This document shows positions 96-28,956 of a stretch of DNA of 29,154 nt, one piece after another. The stretch comes from a virus. The notes beneath the pieces were generated by a model that saw only the letters and a program-made list of their open reading frames with translations, made no database searches and had not been told where the DNA came from. Numbering within the stretch: position 1 is the first letter of the stretch; each line of letters begins with the position of its first letter. The stretch lies in the IMG/VR virus record IMGVR_UViG_3300023109_000090, positions 1 to 29,154 of that record; one strand, written 5' to 3'. The position numbers were made by a program, and so were the translations under genes.

Positions 96-1325
96 TTAAT
101 CGTCTAATCCTGTAGTTACAAATTTATCTAAATCTAAATATATTGTTTGATTTGAGCTAGGCTGCGAGTTGACTAGTATAGAACCTTCTAGCGTAAAACT
201 AGTAACGTGTATATAATTTTTGTCTATATGCCCAAACGTTAACTTTTCCCCACCTTTAAATGTTTGAGCAACATCGGCAACAAACGATCCAGCCGCAGCA
301 GATGCAGTTACATCTTGTACAATACCTGGCTTTGCGTTTAACCCGCTAAACGTCGTTGGCTCAGTAAAGCCTGAACCCGTATCGTAGTTGTCTTGCCCGT
401 TTATACCGTAAGTTCCGTTAACTGTAATAGTCGTGCTGTTGTTAACCGCACCTCTCACCGTTGTTGTAGGTACAACAAGATTATCTGGCTTTATGTTAGG
501 CACAATGCTAGCTCCTATAGCTTTAGATATATTAGTAAGACCATAGCCGTTAAAAGTAAGCGTAGCACCATCACTGCCGTTGCACGCTTTGTCTAAGAAC
601 AAAGTTTTTGTTGTAAGGTCTATTTTTGTAACTACAGGTTTAAACCCACTAAAACCAGACAAGCCTGAAGTTATAGACATGCCAGGAAAAAGGCCATCTG
701 TAGAGTCTACTACTACAGAGCTGCTAGCGCTTATGGCCCCGTCAATAGTGTCTGTAGTAACAAAATACCAAGCAGAGTCTGTTATGTTGTTAAGAATAGT
801 TGTTGTGTCAAGGTCAAATCCAGCTCCAAAACCATCATCTACATTTGACGTGACACTAACTATAGTCCAGCTAATAGGAGTGTTTGACGGTGCAGCTGTT
901 GGACTGTTTGTAATAACTAAATCACTAGGAAGCGTATTATAAAAACCACTAGCCGTAGTAGCTAAAGATAAAGTCAAAGCAGTGTCGCCTAGCTGTTTTA
1001 ATCTTTTGTTAACAGGCTTGCCTCTTTTCATTTCAGTGCCATTTGTAGGATCTGCTACTAATAAGATGTCGTAAGAAGCTCCTGCTGCTGATGGAAACAC
1101 GATAGATCCTTCGAACGATTCTCCAGCTAACGTACCTTTGAGCATTTTTTCTGGCCCATGACCTGAAGAAAATAATTTTGTAGTGAAATTATAATAATCT
1201 CCAGTAGAATTACTAACAATAAGAAAAAACTTAGCCCCAGGCTCACCTGTAACGCTAAATGTTTTTACGCCGCCAGTTTGTGGAAGCTCTACTAAATTTA
1301 TAGATATGTTGTTTATTTTTATCAT
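96..1325 (-). CDS. beta-rich probable virion (tail/appendage) protein, 409 aa
   Basis: This 409-residue protein has no motif I recognise. It is rich in Thr, Ser, Gly, Asn and Val with alternating hydrophobic residues, and has few charged residues and almost no Cys. That composition is typical of beta-sandwich or fibre-like phage virion proteins. The N-terminal ~110 residues (MIKINNISINLVELPQTGG onward) look like one compact beta domain. Several Thr/Ser/Asn-rich beta segments follow. No signal peptide or transmembrane segment is visible. Its ATG overlaps the stop of the 2955-residue gene in an ATGA arrangement, so the two are probably translationally coupled. Neighbours suggest a part of the tail or a host-contact appendage; this is inferred from context and composition only. 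Confidence 0.6.
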   Translation of the reverse strand: MIKINNISINLVELPQTGGVKTFSVTGEPGAKFFLIVSNSTGDYYNFTTKLFSSGHGPEKMLKGTLAGESFEGSIVFPSAAGASYDILLVADPTNGTEMKRGKPVNKRLKQLGDTALTLSLATTASGFYNTLPSDLVITNSPTAAPSNTPISWTIVSVTSNVDDGFGAGFDLDTTTILNNITDSAWYFVTTDTIDGAISASSSVVVDSTDGLFPGMSITSGLSGFSGFKPVVTKIDLTTKTLFLDKACNGSDGATLTFNGYGLTNISKAIGASIVPNIKPDNLVVPTTTVRGAVNNSTTITVNGTYGINGQDNYDTGSGFTEPTTFSGLNAKPGIVQDVTASAAAGSFVADVAQTFKGGEKLTFGHIDKNYIHVTSFTLEGSILVNSQPSSNQTIYLDLDKFVTTGLDD

Positions 1326-4300
1326 ACGTCTATTTCTTCTGATTCTTCAACAAGAAGTATAGGGTCTTGATATAGTTGACCTATTCCTTGAAAGTTAAAG
1401 CTTGATACGCTTGGCGCTCCTGCTCCTCTTATATAGTTAAACCACTTGTCTTCTTTATCGACAAACTCTTTTACAGAACCTTCTTCAATGTTTGTTTTTA
1501 TATACTCAACTAGCCAACCATTTTTACCACTTAAATTATAAAGCTCAGCGTCGTAGCCTAAAGAATCTTGCTGAAGCACTCTAGCCTGACTACCTTCGTA
1601 GTTTAATGTCTTAAAGTTTTTTACAAGATCTGGCTGGTCGTTAAGTAAAGTTGTTATAGTAGACTCTTTAAAACCTTCGCCATAAAAATCGTTTACGTTA
1701 GAGTTTTCGTGATAGTGTTGGTACGCTTTTCCGTGTTTAAATGTAAAATATTTTCTTGAAACACTAACGCCGTCTTCAGGATTAAAAGACTTAAAGCTAA
1801 CCCAGCCTTTTACATCTTCGCTATACGATACTGTAGGCTTTGATGTGTTGTAGCTTTCGGCAACCTTAGTCATTGTTATGTTGTCTAAGCTGTAGCTATT
1901 TAATGGTTGTGAAGTTATAAACACTAAAGACCCTATTAGCATGCCAGGCTGATAATACTCTGATTGCTCTACTGTTCTTATAACAGTGCCTGACGTTGGG
2001 CTTGTGCCGCTACCAATTACAAAGCCAATACCTGGCTTGCTAAAGTAGTAAATATCAAACTGGCCTTTAACGTGATCTACGTCAACTGATATTTCGTATG
2101 ATTCGCCTTCGTTAATTTCTTGACTTATAGCTTGACTAACTTGAATACCTTCTGGAGCATCACTAAATACTATTTGCTCTTGTTGAAATAAATATTCGGT
2201 CGTTGGCTGCACTGGATTAGACTCAGAAGATTCTTCATTGTAGCTAGTAAATATCCAAGAATCAGTGTTTCCACCGCTTACTATTTCAGAGTCGTCTTGT
2301 ATGCTAACTAAAGTTATTTTACCAGAAAATCCTGTGTCTGCATTAGGTATTATAGTTATTTGATCGCTAGGGTGCTCCAAAGTGTCAGTTGCAGCTAAAT
2401 CTAAACTAAAAGTAACGTCAGACCCAACTGGTTGCGATTGCACTGATATTACATTTGGATCAAAGTTAAAGTTTATGCTATACGTACCGTTGTTAACGTT
2501 AGCTGTGTTAATGTTTGTTATACTTAAAACCCTATGCTGACCATCACTCCACTCATCTGTTACTACGTGCAAGTCTAAAGAGCCTTGTATAGTGCCTGTG
2601 CTAGGGTTGTTGTTTATTTCAAAAGAAAGCGTATAACCTTGAGCCGTGCTCTGCAGAAGACTTCCTTGTAAATCTTGAGTAAGAGTATTTAAACTTGCAT
2701 TAGTATCGTTAAATAAATCCCATACCCAGCCACCGTTATCATAATATGATACTTGCTCGTCGAGCGCTGTTGTCAAGTTGTTTGTAGTGTTAACAACCCA
2801 AGCGTCAGAAAAATCACCTCCAGATCCAACCTCAGAGATATTTATAAGAGTAGCGTCTGTTATTATTATTTCAGTGCTATTGAAGCTTTGAAGTCTTATT
2901 CTGTCTACGCCGCCAGTTCTCTCTGAGCTTGCTTGAAACACGACTCTAAGAACTTCTCTTTCTTCACCATACTCTGTCGCTGTGGTAGGCATAAAAATAA
3001 GTCTACCGTTGGTAGTGCCTGAAGCTTGAATTTGTCCAAAGTAGCCAGCAGGATAGTTGTCTTGGCCTACAGAACTAACGAGGTTAGCAGTGGCACTGTC
3101 TGGCGTTATAGTGTTTTCATGCGTCGCACCATGAGCCGCTTGAGCTATATTAAAGTCAACAGCATAAGTTAACCCTAATGTCCCGCCATTGACTTTGTGG
3201 TAAAGTGGGTAGCCGCTACTTAAAACCGTATTGTCTACATCGTAGCCTAAATCAAGCATATACCATTGCCCGTGCTCTAGGATGTCTACTTGGTTTTGTT
3301 CAACATAAGAAGACGCCCCTGTTCCAACAGTATCAGCAAACTCAAAGTAATTGTCTACGTCTGTTATTACTCGCTGAGTAACGTTAGGCTGATGGTTTCC
3401 AAGAGGAACAGAGTTATATGTGTTTATAGAATCACCTAAAGCCGCATCAGCAGCGCCGTATGTTGTAATATTATTTGTTACAGTGTCGTTAGGCAAAAAG
3501 TATGTTAACGTGTTGCCGTTACTGTCAACAGGTGATTGAGCTTGGATAGCTGGATTTTCTGGACCATAAGCGTCTAGCAAACCTTTAGTTAAATCTACAG
3601 GAAGACCGCTAGCAAAACCAGCCCAATCACTAGGCGCTACATACTCTACAGCTGCGAAAGGAGGTATGGCTACCGCTGGAAAAGCTTCGTCAATAGTTTG
3701 CATTTCCTCTATTTGTTCTTGAATAATCGTTGTTGTTCCATAGTTAATGGTGTCTATAAGATTAGCGTTAACGCCGTCGGCATTAGCAAGCGTACCGTAT
3801 GTTGTAATATTATCTAGAGTTTGCGCGTATACTTGAAGATCTAATTCAGAATAGCCATATTGAGCTACGTTTTGCTGCACGACCGGCGGAACATAAGTTT
3901 GACCTACATCTTCTAGTTGAGAAACTCTTTGTATGGCAAAACCATCTATTAAAAGGTTGTGAGAGTGGGAGTACCCGTAGCCAATGTAATCGTTTCCGAA
4001 GCTAGGTGGATTGCTACTTTGACTAACTGTAACTTGAAGGTTTTGTATTGCTACATCTGTAGTAGCGGTAAATCCTGAGCTTTTGTATATTCTATATTTA
4101 AGAAGGTGTGATCTGCTTTCTGTGTACCACACGCTAGGTGGAGTACCTCCTGTGCTAACATAATCCATGCCGTATAAATTAGACGCGCTTGTAGCAAGAC
4201 CTTCAATTCCAGCTGTACTTGGATAGGTAGAGTTGTAAGAGTTTACACTTGTGTAATTAGCGGTAACACCAGGAACGGTAAAGGTATACTCACAGTCGAC

Positions 4301-7300
4301 GCTGTTAAGCGCGCCACCAAAGTTATGCTGAAAGCTTTCGTTTCTTTTAAATTCGCCAGCTTCTAACTGATGCCAAACGCTACTATTTAAGTTTTCGTTT
4401 GTTGCGGCAAAGTTATCCGAGTCACTTAAAGACACGTTACTCAACCAAGGATTGTTAGTGTTTGATCCACCAGCTCCAGTCCAAGATGACTGAAGAGCAG
4501 TAACATAACTATCGCCTGGCACACTTTTAAATCCATCAGCATTTCCACCTAAACCGTCAGTTAAAGATATAGTAACATTCATGTCGCCAGGGCAGTTTTC
4601 TTGATCGCAACCAGCTCCGTTCCAAGGAGTAGACGCCCAGGTCATCGCCCATCTAACTTGATAGTTTATTCTAATCCATATTTCTTCTCCATGAAAAACA
4701 GTAAAGTCTGTAGCTTCTGGATATGCAGCGCTAACGTTATTACTTAACGTTTGAGTACTCCAAGACCCATCTTGAGGTTGTCCTGGAAAAGTAAAAGAAT
4801 TACCAGGCCCTAAAACAACGGCTGAACTTGGCGCAGATCCAAGACTTTGACTGCTAGGTGTAGCCATTGAGCTTGTCACGCTAGAGCCGCTAAAGCCAGC
4901 TAAAAAGTTTTCTGTGCTACCAGCACTTGATGTAAATCCAGTATCACTTCCTATGATGTTATCAAATTCAGCGTACTCAGTTCTAAGCATGTACCCACTA
5001 CCACTGTAGTCTGGAAATATAGCGTCTTGTGCTTCTTGAGTAGTTACATCTGCATAACCTGTTATCACATTGTTACCATCTGCGTTAGCGTTAACTAATA
5101 TAGGCCCATAGTTAGGTACGGTGTCATCGACTTCTATTTGTGGTTGTGTTACAACTAATTGTTCTGAAAAAGCGGTTATACCACCAGCTTCAATGCCTGG
5201 AAAATATGTTATTTTTACACCAGCTTCAAGATTAGGATTTAACACCGGCACATTAGCACCACCATCTAAATATATTTGATTAATATCAGTTGGTACAAAG
5301 TTAGCGCCAGTATCTAAGTTAGGGTTTTGTAAAACTTGACTAGTAAACTGCGATATATTAAGCTCTGCACCTTCAGAAAGATATGAGTTTTTTAATATGT
5401 TGTTGTATACAAACTCTTTAAATGTTACATTGTATTGCCTCTTGTATTCATCGTACGTACCTAGCACTACACCTGCTTTTGGAAGCTCGTCTCTAAAATA
5501 GTCGTGCATTCCAGCGTCTGATATTGGAGTTAGCCCGTCCATAGATAACCTAAGCACAGCACCTCTCTGCTTGTCTGTGAAATAGGCTCTGTATGACTCT
5601 GAAGAAAAAGATTCTGGATTTTTTGATATACCATAATCTCCAACAAAAGGTGTAGCTTGTCCAAGAACGTTTGTTGTAGCTACAAGCTGAGGATTACCGT
5701 CGGCGTTAAATACAGCGTCTTTATTAGCTAGTATTTTTACAACTCTATCTTCACAAAAAGCTATTAAATCTGATGTTCTTGAAAACAGCTTTTGTATACT
5801 ACCGTAGGTAGGGTTTAAGTCTTTAGTTATTTTTTCTGCTTGTATAAACTGATTTAAGTTGTTTAAGCCAGAGCTAGCGTTGTACAAGCCAGAGTATATC
5901 AAGCCGTACTTACGATGCTCTTCTGAATAAGGTTCGTCTAAAGTGGTAGAAGCTTTAGCTCCGTTTTTAATAAAGCTAGCGTTAAAGTCATCTTCAACTC
6001 TGTTAGATTCTACACCATCACCAAAACTAAAACAGTTTGACCAGCCTAATCCAGTTTCTTCACTGATGTCAACTACTCTATTTGCTATAAATTGCCTTTT
6101 TAAAGTTACGCCTTGATTAGTTGTTATTTCGCCAGCGGTTGTGTCTGTTACTGGAGGACCTAGTCTACACGTGGTAAAACTTCCATCAGGTCTATAAAAT
6201 CTAACTCTAGCATCAACATAGTTTATTGCTACATCGTTTTTGTTAAACTTATTAAAACCTCTAGCGTTTGTTCCTAATCCGTTTTCTGTTTGCACTTCAA
6301 ACACTAAGCTACCGTCGTCATACTCAAACCATCTTGTTAAGTGTATTATGTCTGTTAGTATGCCTTGGCCTCTTCTTGCTTGAGGTAAATCTAAAAACTC
6401 TACTCTACATCCTACAGGAGCAAATTGACTTGCGTTATCTAACGTTAAGTACGTAGGTATTGCTTGGCTTGCTTCGTAAAATATATTCAAGTCTAAAGAT
6501 TCTTTAGGCTCTGTCTCAAAAATAGCTGATGCCTCTCTTGTAAACATAGACGCGGCGTGAGCTTTTTCGTCTAAAAACTGTATTTTATTAGCGTAAGTGT
6601 TGAGGTCTGCGTTAGGGTGTGACCCGCCTACTATAGGGCTGTTTGATCCAGTGTTAGCTGGGTTTTTATCTAATCTTAACACATACACTGTTCTTCTGTT
6701 ACTAGCTTGACCAAACTCTTTTATTTTATTAATAAGAGTTGTGTCTTCGCCGTCAACTGTATTTGTTAGTTTAGCTTTAGCCCAAGCAACAGCAGCCTCT
6801 TCAACACTATCTCCACCTCTTACTGGAACTCCACTTTCATTATAAGACCATTTAGCCTTCCATGGAGTGTGGTTGTAAACGTGTTTAACAGAAACATCTA
6901 GTATCGTATACAAAGAATCTTCAAGAGGAGAGTTATCGTTTTTAAATACAAACTTCTTTCCTGTAGTTAGATTGTTTATAAACTTCTCTAAATCTCTATC
7001 TACTTCGCTGGAGCTACCAAACGACCATCGACCAGTAGAATAAGTTGGGTCCCACTGTCTTTCATGGTACTCTCTATATTTTAAATCGTAACCTTTACCA
7101 ACGCCAGGCCCAGGCGCGTCACCAGCAGGATCATCGCCAAGGTAGTTACTTTCAAACTCTACAAACTTAACGGGATTATTATCAAGATCGTCACCAAGAG
7201 AACCGCCAAACTCATCTGTAAATGCGCCGCCTCCCCATATACCTTTTAACAACGCGGCTATACTGTTTTCGCCAGTAACGTCTACGTTATCTAAGTTACT

Positions 7301-10189
7301 TGCTCCGTCAAAGGTGCCGTCATGTAAATTTTTACCTGGAGCAAAAAAGGAAAGATGCATAAAATGGCCTCCAACTTCTTCACCATAAGTTTTATTTGTA
7401 GATGTAGACTCGTATATATCGTCTTTCCAAACATAGTGGCCGTCTATGTAATCTGAATCTGTAGTTATTATTCCAGGAATAAAGTTTCTTATTCTATTAT
7501 TCCACTGAGGATTTCCTATTTTAGAAAACGACCAAGTAGTGTTTTCATCTAAGTTCCAAGGGTAAATATCTTCATCAGAGTCAAACTCGCTATTCCACTC
7601 TGGCTTACTGTATATAACGTCATTAGCGGTTATTCCTTGGCCAGCTTCTTTAGCGTAGCTGTTAGAGGAAACATTAGCAGCAGCCATGTACATGTTATCT
7701 ATGAAAAACCTTTTACCATATCCAGCTGTAAGCAACGCTTCCCACTCTTCAGACGTGTTTGTTATGCCGTCGATAGCATTTAAGTCACTAGGAGCTTGTG
7801 ATGGCTCTGTTGCTATGGTAGGAGCGTTTAAAAGAGTTTCATTTTCAAATGTTCCAGCAGCATCGTCGTACCACCAGCCAAAGCCAGTAGAGGCAGATAT
7901 AAATTTGCTTTTAGACAAAGAAGTGTTTAAACTTAGTATTTTTTCTTTTATTATATCGTCAGAAGTTATCTTAACAAAAAACTTTCCAGCAAACTCTTCG
8001 CCGTCTAGCTTTTCTTTTCTAAACACGCTAAAAACTAAAGTAGGGTTTAGCGTAGGTCCATCTATAATTCCATCATCTCCGTTTTCAGAGTCGTCAGGAT
8101 TACTAGCTAGTATAGCGTCATCATAGGATATTTTTTCAACTAGCTTCAATCTAAACGCGGATCCTACTTCAACTGAAGCAACCTTGTATCTTTTAGAGTG
8201 AGTTTCAAATCCACCTGCTTCTTCTCTTTTCCAAGCTATATATATGTTGTCTACATCTTCTTTGTTAGTAACGCCAGACGAAACGTTCTCATTAGAGCCC
8301 ATACCTCTTATTACAGGGTAGCCAAGCCCGAACCACGTACTTTTGTCTATTTCGACAACATCTACTTCTTTGTCTACTCTATAGCTTTCGTTTTGAAATA
8401 AACCAGAATCTGGTATTGCCACGCCAGCGTCGTCCGTTTGAGGTGTTAAAGCCGTGCCGTTTGTGTTTGGAGCTTCACCTAAAGGAAGATAGATGTTAGC
8501 TATTGATTCTGGCGGCTCTGCAGATATGTCTATTACTTTGTACCTACTTTTTTGTTCTACAGGTATTATATTAGACGAGTCTACTCTTTTTAAAACTAAA
8601 TAGTCTTGTTCTGTTATTTTGTTTACTTCTGAAGAAGGGAACGACAACCAAACATGATCTTCTTTGTTGTCAAACTCAGAGCTTAGCGAAGGTATATACA
8701 ACTTGTCCATTAGTAAGTTGTAGTACTCACCTGAAGTTTCTTTTACATAAAACTTAAAATATGAAGCCCAATCTGGCGCAGAAGTTTGTATAGACCCAGT
8801 TAAAGCTAAAGGAATATAGTAATTAGGCGTCTTGTATCTTTGGTTTAGCCAAGGAATTTTAACAGAGCTTTCGCTAGAAGAAAACACCGGCGTTTCTCTA
8901 CCTTTATCATCTCCCCATACTACTCCTAACTGATAATCTCTTAAAGACTTTACAGTTTCAACTCCTCCTTCTAAAAAACTAGTTTCTCTAGTGTTTCTTT
9001 TTTCATAGTTTGCGTTTAGCTCAAAAGCTCCGTCAACATTGTAGCCTTGTTTGTAGTTTGCATATACGACTCTATTTCCAGTTATCTCCTGAGCTTTAGC
9101 AGATTTTGGTACGTTGTCCCAAGGTCTTAGCGCTTGGTTTTCTGGCAAAGCAGCATATATGTTCTCTGTAGTTATTAAATATCTACCTTTATTTTTTTCT
9201 TGTAAGTTGCCTTTGTATATATCATCTACGCCTTGATAAGACCCTTCGGCGTTAAACTCTTTATCTTTTGTTTTTACATTGGCAACAGAGTATACTACGT
9301 TTGAGTTTTCGCTCTTGTAAAGCAAGTCTACTTGAACAACATCTTTAGGTATGTCAAACGGCACAAAGTCCATTAACTCTATAGAGTCTATAGAATTAGA
9401 CATCGATACGTTTCTACTCTCTTTTTTTGAGTAATAATTTTTACTATTAATATCGTCTTTGTGCTTAGCGCTAAAAACCACACTAGTAAAAGGGCCAAAT
9501 GCAGAATATTCGCCGTCAATGTACTTATATCGATAACAAAATCTAGGTAAGACTTTCTCAAATATACCTCTTTCTTTACTGTCTTTATTATCGTTTATTT
9601 TTACGACAGGCGCAGACTTAGGTCTATCTTTTATTACTGTAATATACTTTTCTGTTACAAGCTCGTCTGTAGCTACGCCGTCAACTACTAACTTCGTGTG
9701 TTCTGCTATAGGTGATTGACTTTGGTTTGTTCCAAGTTTGCTTAGCCTAACGTTTATTTTTTTTGGCTCGCCAATACCGTCTGTCCAAAGCAAAAAGTCA
9801 TCAATTATATTAATTCCAGTTATATACGTGTTAGGAAACTTTAGAGCTGCTTTTGAATTCTTTTTATTAGGATCAACAAACACCAAAGAAGAAATTTGCT
9901 CTAAGTCGTTCCACTCTAGTATTACGTCAGTGTCTGTAGAAGACGCTAGCCAATAAAACCTATTATTTTTTTCGTCAGAAATAGATCCTATGCAAGTAAA
10001 ATCATTACTTGTCAACGCTCCACTAACTACTGTATTACCTAAAATACTTTGAACAGTACCTACGTTAGCTCCTTCAGATGTAGAGACTTCAATGTTTAAC
10101 GCCTCTCTATATTCACCTTTAGAAACTAATCTTTCATCAAGGTCTTTGTTCATCTTACCTTTTAGAAATGTGTTTTTAATTTCAGCCAT
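1322..10189 (-). CDS. giant tail nozzle/stabilisation-like protein with large inserted beta domains, 2955 aa
   Basis: At 2955 residues this is by far the largest gene. The N-terminus (NTFLKGKMNKDLDERLV, then EALNIEVSTSEGANVGTVQ) matches what I recall of a widespread marine and crAss-like family of tail stabilisation or nozzle proteins, functionally like P22 gp10 and probably beta-propellers at the tail end. A propeller-like pattern runs to about residue 1590 (TYDEYKRQYNVTF near 1580). The segment from about 2790 to the end (GWVSFKSFNPEDG, YEGSQARV) reads like the normal C-terminal end of the same family. The ~1200 residues between look inserted. They include beta-sandwich stretches resembling carbohydrate-binding modules (near 2310-2480, 2490-2660 and 2690-2770, the last ending SLDNITM) and a Cys pair near 1863. 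It begins 3 bases after the preceding stop. Function is inferred from recalled family similarity. Confidence 0.7.
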   Translation of the reverse strand: MAEIKNTFLKGKMNKDLDERLVSKGEYREALNIEVSTSEGANVGTVQSILGNTVVSGALTSNDFTCIGSISDEKNNRFYWLASSTDTDVILEWNDLEQISSLVFVDPNKKNSKAALKFPNTYITGINIIDDFLLWTDGIGEPKKINVRLSKLGTNQSQSPIAEHTKLVVDGVATDELVTEKYITVIKDRPKSAPVVKINDNKDSKERGIFEKVLPRFCYRYKYIDGEYSAFGPFTSVVFSAKHKDDINSKNYYSKKESRNVSMSNSIDSIELMDFVPFDIPKDVVQVDLLYKSENSNVVYSVANVKTKDKEFNAEGSYQGVDDIYKGNLQEKNKGRYLITTENIYAALPENQALRPWDNVPKSAKAQEITGNRVVYANYKQGYNVDGAFELNANYEKRNTRETSFLEGGVETVKSLRDYQLGVVWGDDKGRETPVFSSSESSVKIPWLNQRYKTPNYYIPLALTGSIQTSAPDWASYFKFYVKETSGEYYNLLMDKLYIPSLSSEFDNKEDHVWLSFPSSEVNKITEQDYLVLKRVDSSNIIPVEQKSRYKVIDISAEPPESIANIYLPLGEAPNTNGTALTPQTDDAGVAIPDSGLFQNESYRVDKEVDVVEIDKSTWFGLGYPVIRGMGSNENVSSGVTNKEDVDNIYIAWKREEAGGFETHSKRYKVASVEVGSAFRLKLVEKISYDDAILASNPDDSENGDDGIIDGPTLNPTLVFSVFRKEKLDGEEFAGKFFVKITSDDIIKEKILSLNTSLSKSKFISASTGFGWWYDDAAGTFENETLLNAPTIATEPSQAPSDLNAIDGITNTSEEWEALLTAGYGKRFFIDNMYMAAANVSSNSYAKEAGQGITANDVIYSKPEWNSEFDSDEDIYPWNLDENTTWSFSKIGNPQWNNRIRNFIPGIITTDSDYIDGHYVWKDDIYESTSTNKTYGEEVGGHFMHLSFFAPGKNLHDGTFDGASNLDNVDVTGENSIAALLKGIWGGGAFTDEFGGSLGDDLDNNPVKFVEFESNYLGDDPAGDAPGPGVGKGYDLKYREYHERQWDPTYSTGRWSFGSSSEVDRDLEKFINNLTTGKKFVFKNDNSPLEDSLYTILDVSVKHVYNHTPWKAKWSYNESGVPVRGGDSVEEAAVAWAKAKLTNTVDGEDTTLINKIKEFGQASNRRTVYVLRLDKNPANTGSNSPIVGGSHPNADLNTYANKIQFLDEKAHAASMFTREASAIFETEPKESLDLNIFYEASQAIPTYLTLDNASQFAPVGCRVEFLDLPQARRGQGILTDIIHLTRWFEYDDGSLVFEVQTENGLGTNARGFNKFNKNDVAINYVDARVRFYRPDGSFTTCRLGPPVTDTTAGEITTNQGVTLKRQFIANRVVDISEETGLGWSNCFSFGDGVESNRVEDDFNASFIKNGAKASTTLDEPYSEEHRKYGLIYSGLYNASSGLNNLNQFIQAEKITKDLNPTYGSIQKLFSRTSDLIAFCEDRVVKILANKDAVFNADGNPQLVATTNVLGQATPFVGDYGISKNPESFSSESYRAYFTDKQRGAVLRLSMDGLTPISDAGMHDYFRDELPKAGVVLGTYDEYKRQYNVTFKEFVYNNILKNSYLSEGAELNISQFTSQVLQNPNLDTGANFVPTDINQIYLDGGANVPVLNPNLEAGVKITYFPGIEAGGITAFSEQLVVTQPQIEVDDTVPNYGPILVNANADGNNVITGYADVTTQEAQDAIFPDYSGSGYMLRTEYAEFDNIIGSDTGFTSSAGSTENFLAGFSGSSVTSSMATPSSQSLGSAPSSAVVLGPGNSFTFPGQPQDGSWSTQTLSNNVSAAYPEATDFTVFHGEEIWIRINYQVRWAMTWASTPWNGAGCDQENCPGDMNVTISLTDGLGGNADGFKSVPGDSYVTALQSSWTGAGGSNTNNPWLSNVSLSDSDNFAATNENLNSSVWHQLEAGEFKRNESFQHNFGGALNSVDCEYTFTVPGVTANYTSVNSYNSTYPSTAGIEGLATSASNLYGMDYVSTGGTPPSVWYTESRSHLLKYRIYKSSGFTATTDVAIQNLQVTVSQSSNPPSFGNDYIGYGYSHSHNLLIDGFAIQRVSQLEDVGQTYVPPVVQQNVAQYGYSELDLQVYAQTLDNITTYGTLANADGVNANLIDTINYGTTTIIQEQIEEMQTIDEAFPAVAIPPFAAVEYVAPSDWAGFASGLPVDLTKGLLDAYGPENPAIQAQSPVDSNGNTLTYFLPNDTVTNNITTYGAADAALGDSINTYNSVPLGNHQPNVTQRVITDVDNYFEFADTVGTGASSYVEQNQVDILEHGQWYMLDLGYDVDNTVLSSGYPLYHKVNGGTLGLTYAVDFNIAQAAHGATHENTITPDSATANLVSSVGQDNYPAGYFGQIQASGTTNGRLIFMPTTATEYGEEREVLRVVFQASSERTGGVDRIRLQSFNSTEIIITDATLINISEVGSGGDFSDAWVVNTTNNLTTALDEQVSYYDNGGWVWDLFNDTNASLNTLTQDLQGSLLQSTAQGYTLSFEINNNPSTGTIQGSLDLHVVTDEWSDGQHRVLSITNINTANVNNGTYSINFNFDPNVISVQSQPVGSDVTFSLDLAATDTLEHPSDQITIIPNADTGFSGKITLVSIQDDSEIVSGGNTDSWIFTSYNEESSESNPVQPTTEYLFQQEQIVFSDAPEGIQVSQAISQEINEGESYEISVDVDHVKGQFDIYYFSKPGIGFVIGSGTSPTSGTVIRTVEQSEYYQPGMLIGSLVFITSQPLNSYSLDNITMTKVAESYNTSKPTVSYSEDVKGWVSFKSFNPEDGVSVSRKYFTFKHGKAYQHYHENSNVNDFYGEGFKESTITTLLNDQPDLVKNFKTLNYEGSQARVLQQDSLGYDAELYNLSGKNGWLVEYIKTNIEEGSVKEFVDKEDKWFNYIRGAGAPSVSSFNFQGIGQLYQDPILLVEESEEIDV

Positions 10190-24483: not shown

Positions 24484-24741
24484 TTAATCAATTAATACCA
24501 CGTCACGTGATTGTATGACTTGGTATAATTTATCGTTATACTGAACTCCGTGTCCAGCGTGTTTATCGTAGTAAACTACGTCTTTGTCTTCTATTCCTTC
24601 AACTAAGTTGCCAGTTGAAATAACATTAGCTTTTATATACCTGTTGTCTTCGTCGATGTCTTCTGTTAATATTAGACCTGCGACTTTCTTAGGTTCAGCT
24701 TTTATGTTCTCTACTACTATGTAATTATTTACTGCTTTCAT
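24484..24741 (-). CDS. groES: co-chaperonin GroES, 85 aa
   Basis: This is a short GroES homologue, the lid of the GroEL folding chamber. The N-terminal strand MKAVNNYIVVENI, the mobile-loop position KKVAGLILTEDI with the hydrophobic IL(T) tripeptide that binds GroEL, then ANVISTGNLVEGIEDKDVVYY and the last strand QSRDVVLID follow the GroES beta-barrel. At 85 residues it is shorter than the ~97 of bacterial GroES, mostly in the roof loop (KHAGHGVQYND). I start at the ATG at 24741; a TTG one codon earlier is possible. The start lies inside the last 17 bases of groEL, so the two are almost certainly translationally coupled. The order groEL-groES is reversed compared with bacterial operons. Confidence 0.88.
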   Translation of the reverse strand: MKAVNNYIVVENIKAEPKKVAGLILTEDIDEDNRYIKANVISTGNLVEGIEDKDVVYYDKHAGHGVQYNDKLYQVIQSRDVVLID

Positions 24742-26296
24742 CAACTCTAATATTTGAAATTACACAATCGGCAGATATAATAGTAGTTACAACAGATACC
24801 GCGTTTTTAAGCGCAGACTTAGTTACAAGTACAGGATCAATAATGCCTTCTTTAATCATATCAGCTTCTTCACCAGTTACTACGTTAACGCCTATGCCTT
24901 CACCTTTAGGTAAGCCTAATGTTTCAAAGCCCGCGTTATTTAATATAGTAACAAATGGCGCTTTAATAGATTCTAATAAAAGCTCTTCACCTACGTTAGT
25001 AGGTTCGATTTTCATAGAAGCGTTAAGGAGGGCAACGCCGCCCCCTGGCACTATACCTTCTTTTAATGCAGCTTTCGTAGCGTAAATCGCATCTTCGACC
25101 CTATCTTTCTTTTCTTTAAGTTCCACTTTTGAGTTTGCCCCAACGCGGATAATTCCAACACTACCTGATAGCATAGACAATCTTTCTTCCAGTTTCTTTT
25201 TAATGAAACCATTTTTTTCGTCAGCAACAAGTTTTGCGACTTGATCAATTCTTTCTGATACATCTTCGTGTAAGTCTTCTATAGTAGTTATAACAGTGTT
25301 TCTATCATCTGTAGCTGAGTATTCAGCTTCTCCTAGTATATCTAGACTTATACCGTCTAAATCATCTCCTAGCTCTTCATTTACAACTTTAGCTCCTGTA
25401 AGAACAGCTAGATCTTTACACGTGTCGTTTTTAGTAGGTCCAAATCCAGGTAGATCAATAATGTTAATTTTGATGTTACCTTTAACTTTATTCATTAAAA
25501 GCGCCGATTTTACTTGCTGTGACACTTTAGCCACTATAAGTAAAGATCGGTTATTCTTTATAACGTGCTCTAGTATAGTTTGTATCTTACGTATATTAGG
25601 TATCTCAGACATACAAATAAGCACTAGAGGATTATCAAGCTCAGCCTTCTGCTTGTCAGTGTTAGTGACAAAGTGAGGCGAAGTAAGACCACACTCTTTT
25701 AATTGTACCCCGTCAACTACATCTACGTAAGTTTCTTCAGTGTCTGACTCTTCCATAAGCACTATACCATCTTTTCCTACTTGATTGTAAGCATCAGATA
25801 TGATACTACCAAGCTCTGCGTCATTGTTACAGCTAATAGCACTAACAGATTTAAGCATATCACCTTCAATAGCAACAGCTACACTGTCTAAGTACTCGTT
25901 TATCTTGTCTAAACCAGACTTGATACCATTTTTTATTTCTCGTGTTGTAGCTTTGTTGTCAGAACTGACTTGCTTTAGCAGTGATTCAGCTAGCACGGTA
26001 GCAGTGGTTGTTCCATCGCCAGCTTCTCTAACTGTATTTCGGGCTGCTTCTTTGATTAAAGTTGCGCCCATGTTTTCAACCGGGTCATATAAGACTACGC
26101 TTTCCGCAACGGTTACACCATCTTTTGTTATGACCGGATTACCTCTGGCATCTTCGTATATTACGCATTTACCAGAGGCTCCTAAGGTTGATTTCACGGC
26201 TTTTGCTAGCTTTTCAACGCCAGCAACCACTTTTTTATTGGCATCTTGGCCAAAAGTAAGATCTTTAACGATCTCACTAGGTAGATTATACTCCAT
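24725..26296 (-). CDS. groEL: chaperonin GroEL (phage-encoded), 523 aa
   Basis: This is the ATP-driven folding chamber, most likely used to fold the phage capsid or other structural proteins. Diagnostic motifs are present: ITKDGVTVA near residue 56, the ATPase GDGTTTATVLA at 93-103 (Asp94 matches E. coli Asp87), the RVEDAIYATKAA segment near 400 carrying the second catalytic Asp, and VPGGGVALL near 415. Apical-domain sequence around 200-340 is divergent, for example ECGLTSPHFVTNTDKQ and LLIVAKVSQQVKSALLMN. The C-terminal GGM tail of bacterial GroEL is missing; the protein ends DESSK. Length is 523 against about 548 in E. coli. Chaperonin genes are known in some marine phages. It has an A/T-only leader (TTTAATTTAATC) and overlaps groES by 17 bases. 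Confidence 0.95.
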   Translation of the reverse strand: MEYNLPSEIVKDLTFGQDANKKVVAGVEKLAKAVKSTLGASGKCVIYEDARGNPVITKDGVTVAESVVLYDPVENMGATLIKEAARNTVREAGDGTTTATVLAESLLKQVSSDNKATTREIKNGIKSGLDKINEYLDSVAVAIEGDMLKSVSAISCNNDAELGSIISDAYNQVGKDGIVLMEESDTEETYVDVVDGVQLKECGLTSPHFVTNTDKQKAELDNPLVLICMSEIPNIRKIQTILEHVIKNNRSLLIVAKVSQQVKSALLMNKVKGNIKINIIDLPGFGPTKNDTCKDLAVLTGAKVVNEELGDDLDGISLDILGEAEYSATDDRNTVITTIEDLHEDVSERIDQVAKLVADEKNGFIKKKLEERLSMLSGSVGIIRVGANSKVELKEKKDRVEDAIYATKAALKEGIVPGGGVALLNASMKIEPTNVGEELLLESIKAPFVTILNNAGFETLGLPKGEGIGVNVVTGEEADMIKEGIIDPVLVTKSALKNAVSVVTTIISADCVISNIRVDESSK

Positions 26297-27449: not shown

Positions 27450-27495
27450 GTGACACTTGCCTGTTACTAAAGAAACCTTAATAGGCTAATGTCAC
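27450..27495 (-). promoter_or_regulatory. 46-nt GTGACA/TGTCAC hairpin in the leader of the leftward block
   Basis: Read on the minus strand: GTGACA, TTA, GCCT, a 20-nt loop, AGGC, AAG, TGTCAC, then ACTTTTAAC. The outer six and inner four pairs match, separated by a symmetric 3-nt internal loop. It lies about 40 bases upstream of the first leftward gene. It has the same outer stem, 3-nt internal loop, 46-nt span and ACTTTT flank as the plus-strand hairpin at 28569-28614. It may be an attenuator, a terminator against antisense transcription, or a protein-binding palindrome. Confidence 0.6.
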
Positions 27496-27563: not shown

Positions 27564-27664
27564 AATGGAAAGTCGTTTATATATTACTAGCCCCCTTGCG
27601 TTTTTTGACATTTCCGCCAGCGTTTACGCGTTACGGCGCGCGTCAGCGTCGCTGTATAGCATTT

Positions 27665-27707
27665 GCACAAACTTACCACGATACTATCTAGATAATACTA
27701 TTGTAAC
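27665..27707 (+). promoter_or_regulatory. 43-bp promoter-like element, copy A
   Basis: GCACAAACT, 4 bases, ACGATA, 6 bases, AGATAATA, 6 bases, TAAC. It differs from the consensus ACGACT block at two positions. It lies 66 bp upstream of copy B with no credible gene between. AGATAATA could be a -10-like box; the GCACAAACT block is too far away (about 22 bp) for a normal -35. Confidence 0.65.
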
Positions 27708-27730
27708 TATTATTTAATGTACTGCACGCT

Positions 27731-27773
27731 GCACAAAGTCTATACGACTTACATCAGATAATATAAATGTAAA
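27731..27773 (+). promoter_or_regulatory. 43-bp promoter-like element, copy B
   Basis: GCACAAAGT, 4 bases, ACGACT, 6 bases, AGATAATA, 6 bases, TAAA. It ends 35 bases before the ATG at 27809, so it is well placed to drive the first rightward gene. The leader between holds only A, T and a single C (AAATTAAATTAATT just before the ATG). Confidence 0.7.
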
Positions 27774-27808
27774 TAAATAAATTATTATAAACTTAAATTA
27801 AATTAATT

Positions 27809-28042
27809 ATGTCAGTATTAAATTCAAAAAGATTCGTAATGCGTAAATCATTAATCGGAAACAACACAATCATTACATTTACGAATAAGAAAAATGAAAC
27901 GTATACTTATGATCATGACGCGGTATACTCAGCGAATCAAGAAAAACTTAACAACATGGACTGTTGGCACAAGTACGGTAATTACACGAACAGTAATAAC
28001 TTACCAACGTGGGCACGTGAACATCAAGTGGAGACTAAATAG
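27809..28042 (+). CDS. small protein, paralogue 1 of a tandem pair, 77 aa
   Basis: This is the first rightward gene, of unknown function. It is a clear paralogue of the 73-residue protein at 28338: KRFV-x-RKSLIG, ITFTNKK, YTY-x-HD, YS, QE, M-x-C and KYGNYTNSN are shared, with 41 of 65 residues identical and no gaps. The shape suggests a short beta hairpin (RFVMRKSLIG, TIITFTNKK, ETYTYDHD) followed by a helix and an ordered aromatic- and Asn-rich tail. One Cys (MDCWHKYG) is conserved between both copies. No membrane segment or signal. The AAATTAAATTAATT leader, downstream of promoter-like copies A and B, suggests strong early expression; a host-takeover or regulatory role is a guess from position. 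Confidence 0.85.
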   Translation: MSVLNSKRFVMRKSLIGNNTIITFTNKKNETYTYDHDAVYSANQEKLNNMDCWHKYGNYTNSNNLPTWAREHQVETK

Positions 28043-28078
28043 TCTTCATTTGATTCATTAACCTAACTAAACTAAACC

Positions 28079-28135
28079 ATGCTTTATCTACACATTGCTT
28101 TATTGATACTGATCATTGCAACATGCAATCAGTAG
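28079..28135 (+). CDS. possible 18-aa hydrophobic micro-peptide
   Basis: An ATG at 28079 opens an 18-codon frame, MLYLHIALLILIIATCNQ, ending in TAG. The sequence is almost entirely hydrophobic and ends with a lipobox-like ATC-NQ. It lies 36 bases after the stop of paralogue 1 behind a leader of A, C and T. It could be a membrane micro-protein or a leader peptide, but an open frame this short can easily arise by chance. Confidence 0.2.
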   Translation: MLYLHIALLILIIATCNQ

Positions 28136-28160
28136 CTGCCTCGCAGCAACGCCGCTTGCG

Positions 28161-28185
28161 GTGTATAGCACGAAGTGTATAGCAC
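28161..28185 (+). repeat. direct repeat of GTGTATAGCAC (two copies, 14-bp period)
   Basis: GTGTATAGCAC occurs at 28161-28171 and 28175-28185, separated by GAA, just upstream of promoter-like copy C. A single related box (TGTATAGCA at 27653-27661) sits at nearly the same place upstream of copy A. It may be an activator or repressor site. Confidence 0.6.
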
Positions 28186-28193
28186 CTGCACCT

Positions 28194-28236
28194 GCACAAA
28201 CTGTTTACGACTACCTTCAGATAATAAAACTGTAAC
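28194..28236 (+). promoter_or_regulatory. 43-bp promoter-like element, copy C
   Basis: GCACAAACT, 4 bases, ACGACT, 6 bases, AGATAATA, 6 bases, TAAC: the full consensus. The next bases form GTAACTG (28232-28238) and CAGTTAC (28252-28258), a seven-base inverted repeat at the expected RNA start, enclosing an ATG for a five-residue frame. There is no protein gene before copy D, so a short RNA may be made. Confidence 0.7.
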
Positions 28237-28277
28237 TGATAATAATAATGACAGTTACTTACTGAGTAATAATGAGT

Positions 28278-28320
28278 GCACAAACTCAACACGACTAAGT
28301 AAAGATAATAATAACGTAAC
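28278..28320 (+). promoter_or_regulatory. 43-bp promoter-like element, copy D
   Basis: GCACAAACT, 4 bases, ACGACT, 6 bases, AGATAATA, 6 bases, TAAC: the full consensus. It ends 17 bases before the ATG of paralogue 2, the shape expected of a promoter with a very short leader (AATTAAATTAAATACT). Confidence 0.7.
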
Positions 28321-28337
28321 CAATTAAATTAAATACT

Positions 28338-28559
28338 ATGACTACTAAAAGATTTGTAATCAGAAAGTCTCTAATCGGAGCAAACCAAGTAATAACGTTT
28401 ACTAACAAGAAAGGTGTTTCTTACACTTATAACCACGACGACATCTACTCTAAATTCCAAGAAAGATTCGAAAGTATGGAGTGTTTCCAAAAGTATGGTA
28501 ACTACACGAATAGTAATGCGGTGCCTGCCTTCGCTCGTGACTTGTCAGAAATCAAGTAA
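28338..28559 (+). CDS. small protein, paralogue 2 of a tandem pair, 73 aa
   Basis: Gapless alignment to the 77-residue protein at 27809 gives 41 identities in 65 residues, with most substitutions conservative (Ile/Val, Asp/Glu, Lys/Arg, Trp/Phe). Shared blocks are KRFV-x-RKSLIG, ITFTNKK, YTY-x-HD and KYGNYTNSN; the single Cys (MECFQKYG) is also kept. The conserved-core pattern shows both copies have been under selection, so both are probably functional proteins. No family recognised. It is driven by tandem elements C and D and followed ten bases later by a strong hairpin. Divergence is greatest at the ends and in the helix (KFQERFES against ANQEKLNN), which may mark a partner-binding face. 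Confidence 0.85.
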   Translation: MTTKRFVIRKSLIGANQVITFTNKKGVSYTYNHDDIYSKFQERFESMECFQKYGNYTNSNAVPAFARDLSEIK

Positions 28560-28568
28560 CATAAAACA

Positions 28569-28627
28569 GTGACAATAGGTAGTTACTATTAATAACTTAA
28601 CTACCTTATGTCACACTTTTCAAAAGT
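28569..28627 (+). terminator. bidirectional-looking hairpin/terminator after paralogue 2
   Basis: GTGACA, ATA, GGTAGTTA, a 12-nt loop, TAACTACC, TTA, TGTCAC: six plus eight base pairs with a 3-nt internal loop, 46 nt in all. It is followed by ACTTTT, which itself mirrors AAAAGT (28615-28627). A further small inverted repeat, AGTAAT-TATC-ATTACT, follows at 28625-28640. The stem starts ten bases after the stop codon, so it probably ends the paralogue 2 message, although the T-run is short. Confidence 0.65.
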
Positions 28628-28705
28628 AATTATCATTACTCATAGAGAGATGGTGTACTACTACTCACAATGGTAATTTATCACCTAAACAATATAACTA
28701 CTTTT

Positions 28706-28748
28706 GTACAAACTGAATAAGTCCACTTTCAGATAATATAAATGAACT
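28706..28748 (+). promoter_or_regulatory. 43-bp promoter-like element, copy E
   Basis: GTACAAACT, 4 bases, AAGTCC, 6 bases, AGATAATA, 6 bases, AACT. It is the most diverged copy, but the spacing and the AGATAATA block are exact. It ends 13 bases before the ATG at 28762, immediately upstream of an A/T leader (TAATAATAATAAT). Confidence 0.65.
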
Positions 28749-28761
28749 TAATAATAATAAT

Positions 28762-28956
28762 ATGACTCAAGAAATAGTAGAGAGAATAATAGATGAAACA
28801 GTAGATACTATAATAGATAGTATAGATGAAAAGACAGTAGATTACATGTTTGAATATGGTAACTATGAAGAAACAGATAATCAATTTTTAGAAGACCTAC
28901 AGGTGTTTAAAAAAGAAATAATAACAGAATTATATAACAGAATAAATAAGGAATAA
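28762..28956 (+). CDS. small acidic protein of unknown function, 64 aa
   Basis: This 64-residue acidic, helical protein (VERIIDETVDTIIDSIDEK, FLEDLQVFKKEIITELYNR) is spaced like amphipathic helices with Ile/Leu every three to four residues. No Cys, no membrane segment, no known motif. Short acidic helical proteins are common among phage early genes, and some bind host RNA polymerase or nucleases, but nothing here shows that. Promoter-like copy E lies directly upstream, and the next gene follows after three bases, so the two share a transcript. Confidence 0.75.
   Translation: MTQEIVERIIDETVDTIIDSIDEKTVDYMFEYGNYEETDNQFLEDLQVFKKEIITELYNRINKE

Follow-up and report, generated by a model that had tools for sequence, protein, structure and literature searches.

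The last part of a 29,154-bp record from an uncultured marine phage, a fragment that we call the window over its whole length, holds five copies of a 43-bp element ahead of small genes. The question raised by this locus is whether these copies are promoters and, if so, which polymerase reads them. A sequence-only reading had proposed a phage-specific promoter, or an operator overlaid on one, perhaps served by a phage-modified or phage-encoded polymerase. The minus strand of the window encodes a terminase, a portal protein, a major capsid-type protein, a 2955-aa protein, and GroEL/GroES, and small ORFs occupy the plus strand from about position 27,660. By terminase the nearest annotated phages are MW202828.1 (62%), the elemoviruses (45%), Maribacter phage Panino (42%), and Cellulophaga phages (37-38%). 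The GroES-like and GroEL proteins are encoded at 24484-26296 (Cpn60, E 3e-51), and GroEL or GroES is also annotated in MW202828, an elemovirus, Panino, and phi13:2. The 2955-aa structural protein (1322-10189, minus strand) matches the C-terminal domain of the crAss muzzle below the cut-off, and in one relative (G014) the match is above it. This weak match may link the clade to Crassvirales-type tails; with the terminase matches in Cellulophaga, Flavobacterium, and Tenacibaculum phages it points to distant structural kinship with the Crassvirales.

Results

A strict pattern of the element matched the window at 27665 (2 mismatches), 27731 (2), 28194 (0), and 28278 (0), always on the plus strand, and had no match in 100 shuffled windows. 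The copy at 28706 has more than three mismatches; it retains ACAAACT and AGATAATA in exact register, with AAGTCC in place of ACGACT and AACT in place of TAAC. A matrix built from the five copies scored 46-58 bits at these sites and found no further site above 8 bits in the window. The five same-strand copies described earlier are therefore real, four by the strict pattern and the fifth by the matrix. The accompanying claim that all sequence blocks are fixed holds for ACAAA-T and AGATAATA, the only parts common to all five copies, and fails for the middle block, which varies in copies 1 (ACGATA) and 5, and for TAAC in copy 5.

Coordinates of the copies were taken from the pattern and the five-copy matrix, and the predicted +1 and the register of the blocks were set by the consensus described below. 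All copies and ORFs that follow are on the plus strand. Two putative promoters precede a 77-aa early ORF (27809-28042): distal copy 1 (27665-27707), with ACAAACT at 27667-27673, ACGA at 27678-27681, GATAAT at 27691-27696, and a predicted +1 at G 27703, and proximal copy 2 (27731-27773), with ACAAAGT at 27733-27739, ACGA at 27744-27747, GATAAT at 27757-27762, and a predicted +1 at G 27769. A 73-aa early ORF (28338-28559) is preceded by distal copy 3 (28194-28236; GATAAT 28220-28225, predicted +1 G 28232) and proximal copy 4 (28278-28320; GATAAT 28304-28309, predicted +1 G 28316). Copy 5, with its degenerate middle block (28706-28748; GATAAT 28732-28737, predicted +1 G 28744), stands before a 64-aa early ORF (28762-28956), for which no convincing family was found. 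The distances of 35, 17, and 13 bases from the end of the element to the ATG (at 27809, 28338, and 28762) had been given correctly. In every window copy +1 is G and -1 is T or C; the predicted leader is 40 nt for copy 2, 22 nt for copy 4, 18 nt for copy 5, and exactly 106 nt for copies 1 and 3.

The 77-aa and 73-aa ORFs are paralogues, each behind its own pair of copies. No Pfam or PHROG match was found for the former; 54 IMG/VR loci contain relatives of the latter, and the majority of these loci have the motif close by on the same strand. No relative was found in the annotated phage collection. Copies 1-4 may thus have arisen by tandem duplication, their two downstream genes being paralogues with two copies each. 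Conservation of the element nevertheless reflects selection, as had been proposed, because the spacers have diverged and several hundred copies are present in relatives.

A consensus built from 164 unique copies reads YACAAACT-AAA-TACGA-N8-RGATAATA-TAAA-YR-TAA. YACAAACT occupies positions 2-9, AAA 10-12, TACGA 13-17, and RGATAATA 26-33, and positions 18-25 are weak. G27, A28, T29, A30, T32, and A33 are each present in 100% of the copies, and RGATAATA is followed by TAAA, Y38 (97%), R39 (100%), TAA, and an A-rich leader. When A28 is numbered -11, GATAAT spans -12 to -7 with an invariant G at -12, Y38 is -1, and R39 is +1; ACAAACT then lies at -36 to -30, 17-18 bp upstream of GATAAT, and an additional block, TACGA, covers -26 to -22. 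The upstream part of the consensus resembles an 11-bp direct repeat, TACAAACT/TACG-ACT. The 22-bp gap that had seemed incompatible with sigma70 was a misparse: with ACAAACT as the -35 block the geometry is that of ordinary sigma promoters. A YR step at -1/+1 is the usual initiator. ORF starts in the relatives peak 18-44 nt beyond position 39, and in about ten copies an ATG falls exactly on positions 39-41, so that its A is +1. Since geometry, initiator, and leader lengths all fit, the element appears to be a sigma-type promoter. That it is a promoter of some kind is very likely, with transcription predicted to begin at the R39 purine.

An exact search for ACAAACT-N4-ACGACT-N6-AGATAAT matched 42 IMG/VR stretches, and in 96 fetched loci the five-copy matrix gave 246 matches of at least 22 bits; reversing the matrix left none. 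Ten near-complete relatives (62-69 kb) were then scanned with a refined matrix. Each carried 5-10 copies; all 81 were on the early-gene strand, 0 on the late strand, and 0 in the structural half of the genomes. Although non-coding DNA makes up only 5-14% of these genomes, 78 of the 81 copies were outside ORFs of at least 60 aa, and 53 of 80 were at most 60 nt from the start of such an ORF. Several copies per genome precede phage genes in a single orientation, and these genes are separate ones spaced out along about 10 kb. The matrix scan that the sequence-only reading had suggested thus places copies ahead of other early genes, neither scattered at random nor inside genes, and consensus and scan agree with its proposal of a phage-specific promoter of early-strand genes, unlike that of the host sigma-A. 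In the same ten genomes the canonical Bacteroidota sigma-A promoter was not enriched on either strand, its pattern being no commoner than the reverse, and a gapped k-mer search for late-strand promoters gave nothing convincing. Lineage-specific -35 variants (ACGAAGC, ACGGACT, and ACAGAC) were observed in L203, L196, L201, and L305-L310, where each is kept across the phage's own copies; these phages also have changes near the recognition helix of the sigma factor described below (SELK for SQLK, ADF for SSY).

A search with sigma-70 region 2 found a match in 9 of the 10 near-complete genomes, and the tenth was found by a profile of these proteins. Together with three genomes chosen by terminase, a sigma-70-family factor of about 250 aa is encoded in 13/13 near-complete motif-bearing genomes, for example at 53087-53839 in G014. 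It contains Pfam regions 2 and 4, matches the PHROG 'RNA polymerase sigma factor' down to 1.9e-23, and has sigma-28/FliA as its best sequence match among solved structures. An AlphaFold model of middling confidence (pLDDT 73) retrieved sigma-A and sigma-S in initiation complexes with Foldseek at E about 1e-6; TM-scores were low, as expected if the domains of the phage sigma are placed differently. No close relative was found in the annotated phages searched. The window, a 29-kb fragment, has no sigma gene, and that of its phage is presumed to lie in the missing part.

Sigma gene and motif go together. At 195 sigma loci (IMG/VR and MAG), 697 motif copies were on the strand of the sigma gene and 4 on the opposite strand. 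Most motif-less sigma loci had little upstream DNA. Five (L185, L241, L311, L312, and L331) combine a sigma gene and 10 kb of upstream DNA with no recognisable motif, also when the motif core was searched for; a diverged promoter may be in use there. Choosing contigs by terminase alone provides a fairer test of co-occurrence. Among window-type contigs chosen in this way, the three longest (53-69 kb) carry sigma and motif; three shorter fragments comprise two that lack a sigma gene and carry the motif at their ends and one that has neither. In 13 sister and outgroup records (nine MW202828-type contigs, MW202828, phi13:2, an elemovirus, and Panino) the sigma gene was found in 0/13 and the motif in 0/13. 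This joint presence and absence in terminase-chosen contigs indicates that sigma and motif were gained or lost together, within one clade. Shared ancestry may play a part in the association, sigma, motif, and the helix-turn-helix (HTH) protein described below all being confined to one clade.

The mirror-tree correlation between sigma and motif was weak overall and absent for the -35 with region 4.2. The top covarying pairs in a mixed model joined motif position 5 (-34) to residue 220, which lies in the turn ahead of the recognition helix, and position 26 (-13) to residue 120 in region 2.4/3.0; on the tree the first pair had five origins and the second two. Control genes were equally strong, p-values for the neighbouring HTH gene and a downstream gene reaching 6e-12 and 3e-9, and covariation therefore carries little weight for the pairing of sigma and motif.

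In most of the ten genomes the sigma gene is immediately preceded by a gene for a protein of about 206 aa with a C-terminal HTH (e.g. G014 52457-53071 and G001 2405-3025); in G003 this gene is nearby. The two genes usually overlap or are closely coupled. The HTH gene was present in all 117 motif-bearing sigma loci tested and was not found in the sister clade, one weak elemovirus match apart. The motif is accompanied by a second putative regulatory element, an inverted repeat GTGACA...TGTCAC, which in the window lies at 27450-27495, in the divergent early/late region, and at 28569-28614, between the 73-aa ORF and copy 5. A first, strict pattern proved too narrow; the wider form GTGACA-N32-35-TGTCAC, 44-48 bp long with partly paired inner arms, yielded 111 distinct copies in the fetched loci. 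It occurs in 9 of 13 motif genomes searched (G001, G003, G008, G013-G016, G018, and G031) and in 0/13 sister and outgroup records. In several genomes the HTH-sigma operon has its start codon within the right arm, ATGTCAC, and the early/late divergent region contains a further copy. Although it is predicted to form a good hairpin, the repeat is more simply read as an operator of the HTH protein. A different palindrome was seen in the sister phage MW202828.1, where a perfect GTGTCGTTAACGACAC stands before many early genes (3700-5900) and is perhaps the operator of that phage's annotated repressor (record 40229-40705).

Discussion

We consider it likely, with a probability of about 0.72, that the element defines a class of promoters found in an uncultured Bacteroidota podovirus clade and read by the host core RNA polymerase carrying a phage-encoded sigma factor. 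In this scheme the sigma-70-family factor, encoded distally on the early strand, would load onto the host core enzyme, melting GATAAT (-12 to -7) with its region 2 and binding ACAAACT (about -36 to -30) with its region 4. The purine of the YR step, 7 bases past GATAAT, would be the first base transcribed, giving leaders of 18-40 nt, of 106 nt from distal copies, and none where the A of the ATG is +1. The TACGA block (-26 to -22) would provide a further contact, made by sigma, the core enzyme, or the co-encoded HTH protein.

The element differs from promoter classes with which it shares features. With the Bacteroidota sigma-A promoter (TTG at -33, TAnnTTTG at -12 to -5) it shares the -12 to -5 register of the -10 box, but it has G at -12, A/T instead of TTTG, and no TTG at -33, and does not belong to this class; the poor fit to that promoter reported earlier is borne out by the -10. 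T4 MotA middle promoters combine a -10 with a factor box near -30 and keep the host -10 consensus. The element likewise has a -10 and a box near -30, but its -10 departs from that of the host, and it is not a middle promoter of the MotA type. Sigma-28/FliA promoters (TAAAGTTT-N11-GCCGATAA; PMC2859248) have the GATAA core in common with it, and its CAAA is within one base of the position of the sigma-28 TAAA; it lacks the GCC extended -10, however, has a different -35 and the extra TACGA block, and is not a sigma-28 promoter, only GATAA being shared.

The linked HTH gene suggests another division of labour, in which the HTH protein, in the manner of MotA, binds the ACAAACT/TACGA part (-36 to -22) and thereby activates the host enzyme, whose own sigma serves the -10. 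The constant presence of this gene at motif-bearing loci and its near absence from the sister clade fit such a role, as do the direct-repeat character of the upstream part and the covariation of HTH residues with the motif, which equals that of sigma residues in strength. We nevertheless regard it as unlikely: GATAATA is not the host TAnnTTTG box, which makes reading by the host sigma-A improbable, and the inverted repeat holding the HTH start codon in several genomes is a more natural operator for the protein. Less likely again is an immediate-early promoter for an alternative host sigma, with the phage sigma reserved for other, late genes. The copies would drive the first genes beside the divergent region, where phages usually use the host enzyme, and the phage sigmas 7-11 gp47 and phiEco32 gp36 are used for late or middle genes (PMC8948821). 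Against this, the Flavobacterium sigma motifs obtained from transcript starts (sigma-A variants, sigma-54, TAnnTTGY, and ECF CGT) differ from the element (PMC9723704), the motif goes with the phage sigma in both presence and absence, and the late-strand scan offers no convincing other promoter for the phage factor.

Repetition, fixed spacing, and intergenic position would also suit an operator or iteron, that is, sites for a repressor or replication protein instead of promoters. This is improbable given the single orientation toward genes, the spread over about 10 kb before separate genes, the -10/initiator geometry, and the copies that abut start codons. A T7-like promoter, on which a single-subunit phage polymerase would start at the G of GATAATA, has in its favour that AATACGACT-N5-TAG is in register with the T7 promoter and that, by eye, 12 consensus positions agree. 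It is close to refuted. No single-subunit RNA polymerase (PF00940) was detected in the ten near-complete genomes, in a search where the T7 control matched at 1e-109; conservation runs about 15 bp beyond the proposed start; and ORF start codons occur at positions 37-39, with none between the G and the YR step except a spurious upstream ATGG. Nor was an RNA polymerase domain found by Pfam or PHROGs in the large phage proteins tested, and where early transcription in Crassvirales is carried out by a virion RNA polymerase, these phages have a sigma factor instead. Of the polymerases envisaged at the outset, the phage-modified one is supported, probably as host core plus phage sigma, and a phage-encoded one of T7 type is not.

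Phage sigma factors with their own promoters are already known, and phiEco32 gp36 and 7-11 gp47 are nearest in kind (PMC8948821). Those phages are likewise podoviruses with a sigma-70-family factor and a consensus of its own at several places, with starts 6-9 bp from the promoter element (PMC8948821). Their consensus sequences (tAATGTAtA; GTAAtg-16-aCTA) are unrelated to the present one (PMC8948821), and their sigmas serve middle and late genes, whereas the copies described here are on the early strand only. The clade further differs in its host phylum, as judged from relatives, in the third conserved block within the spacer, and in the linked HTH gene. Our literature search found no paper on early promoters of crAss-like or Cellulophaga phages.

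The host core enzyme with a phage sigma could be part of something more elaborate: a self-contained module of an HTH-sigma operon with its start codon inside the inverted repeat and a three-block promoter that requires both proteins. We hold this extension to be possible but doubtful; if true, a dedicated sigma-activator pair, and not a phage polymerase, would run the early genes of these phages. Very few cases of early transcription are known for Bacteroidota phages. By pairing a consensus some 40 bp long with a candidate sigma, the present analysis allows promoters, operons, and probable early genes to be annotated by sequence alone in hundreds of contigs from uncultured, mostly aquatic phages. 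If this sigma reads the element, the two would constitute an orthogonal sigma/promoter pair for Bacteroidota.
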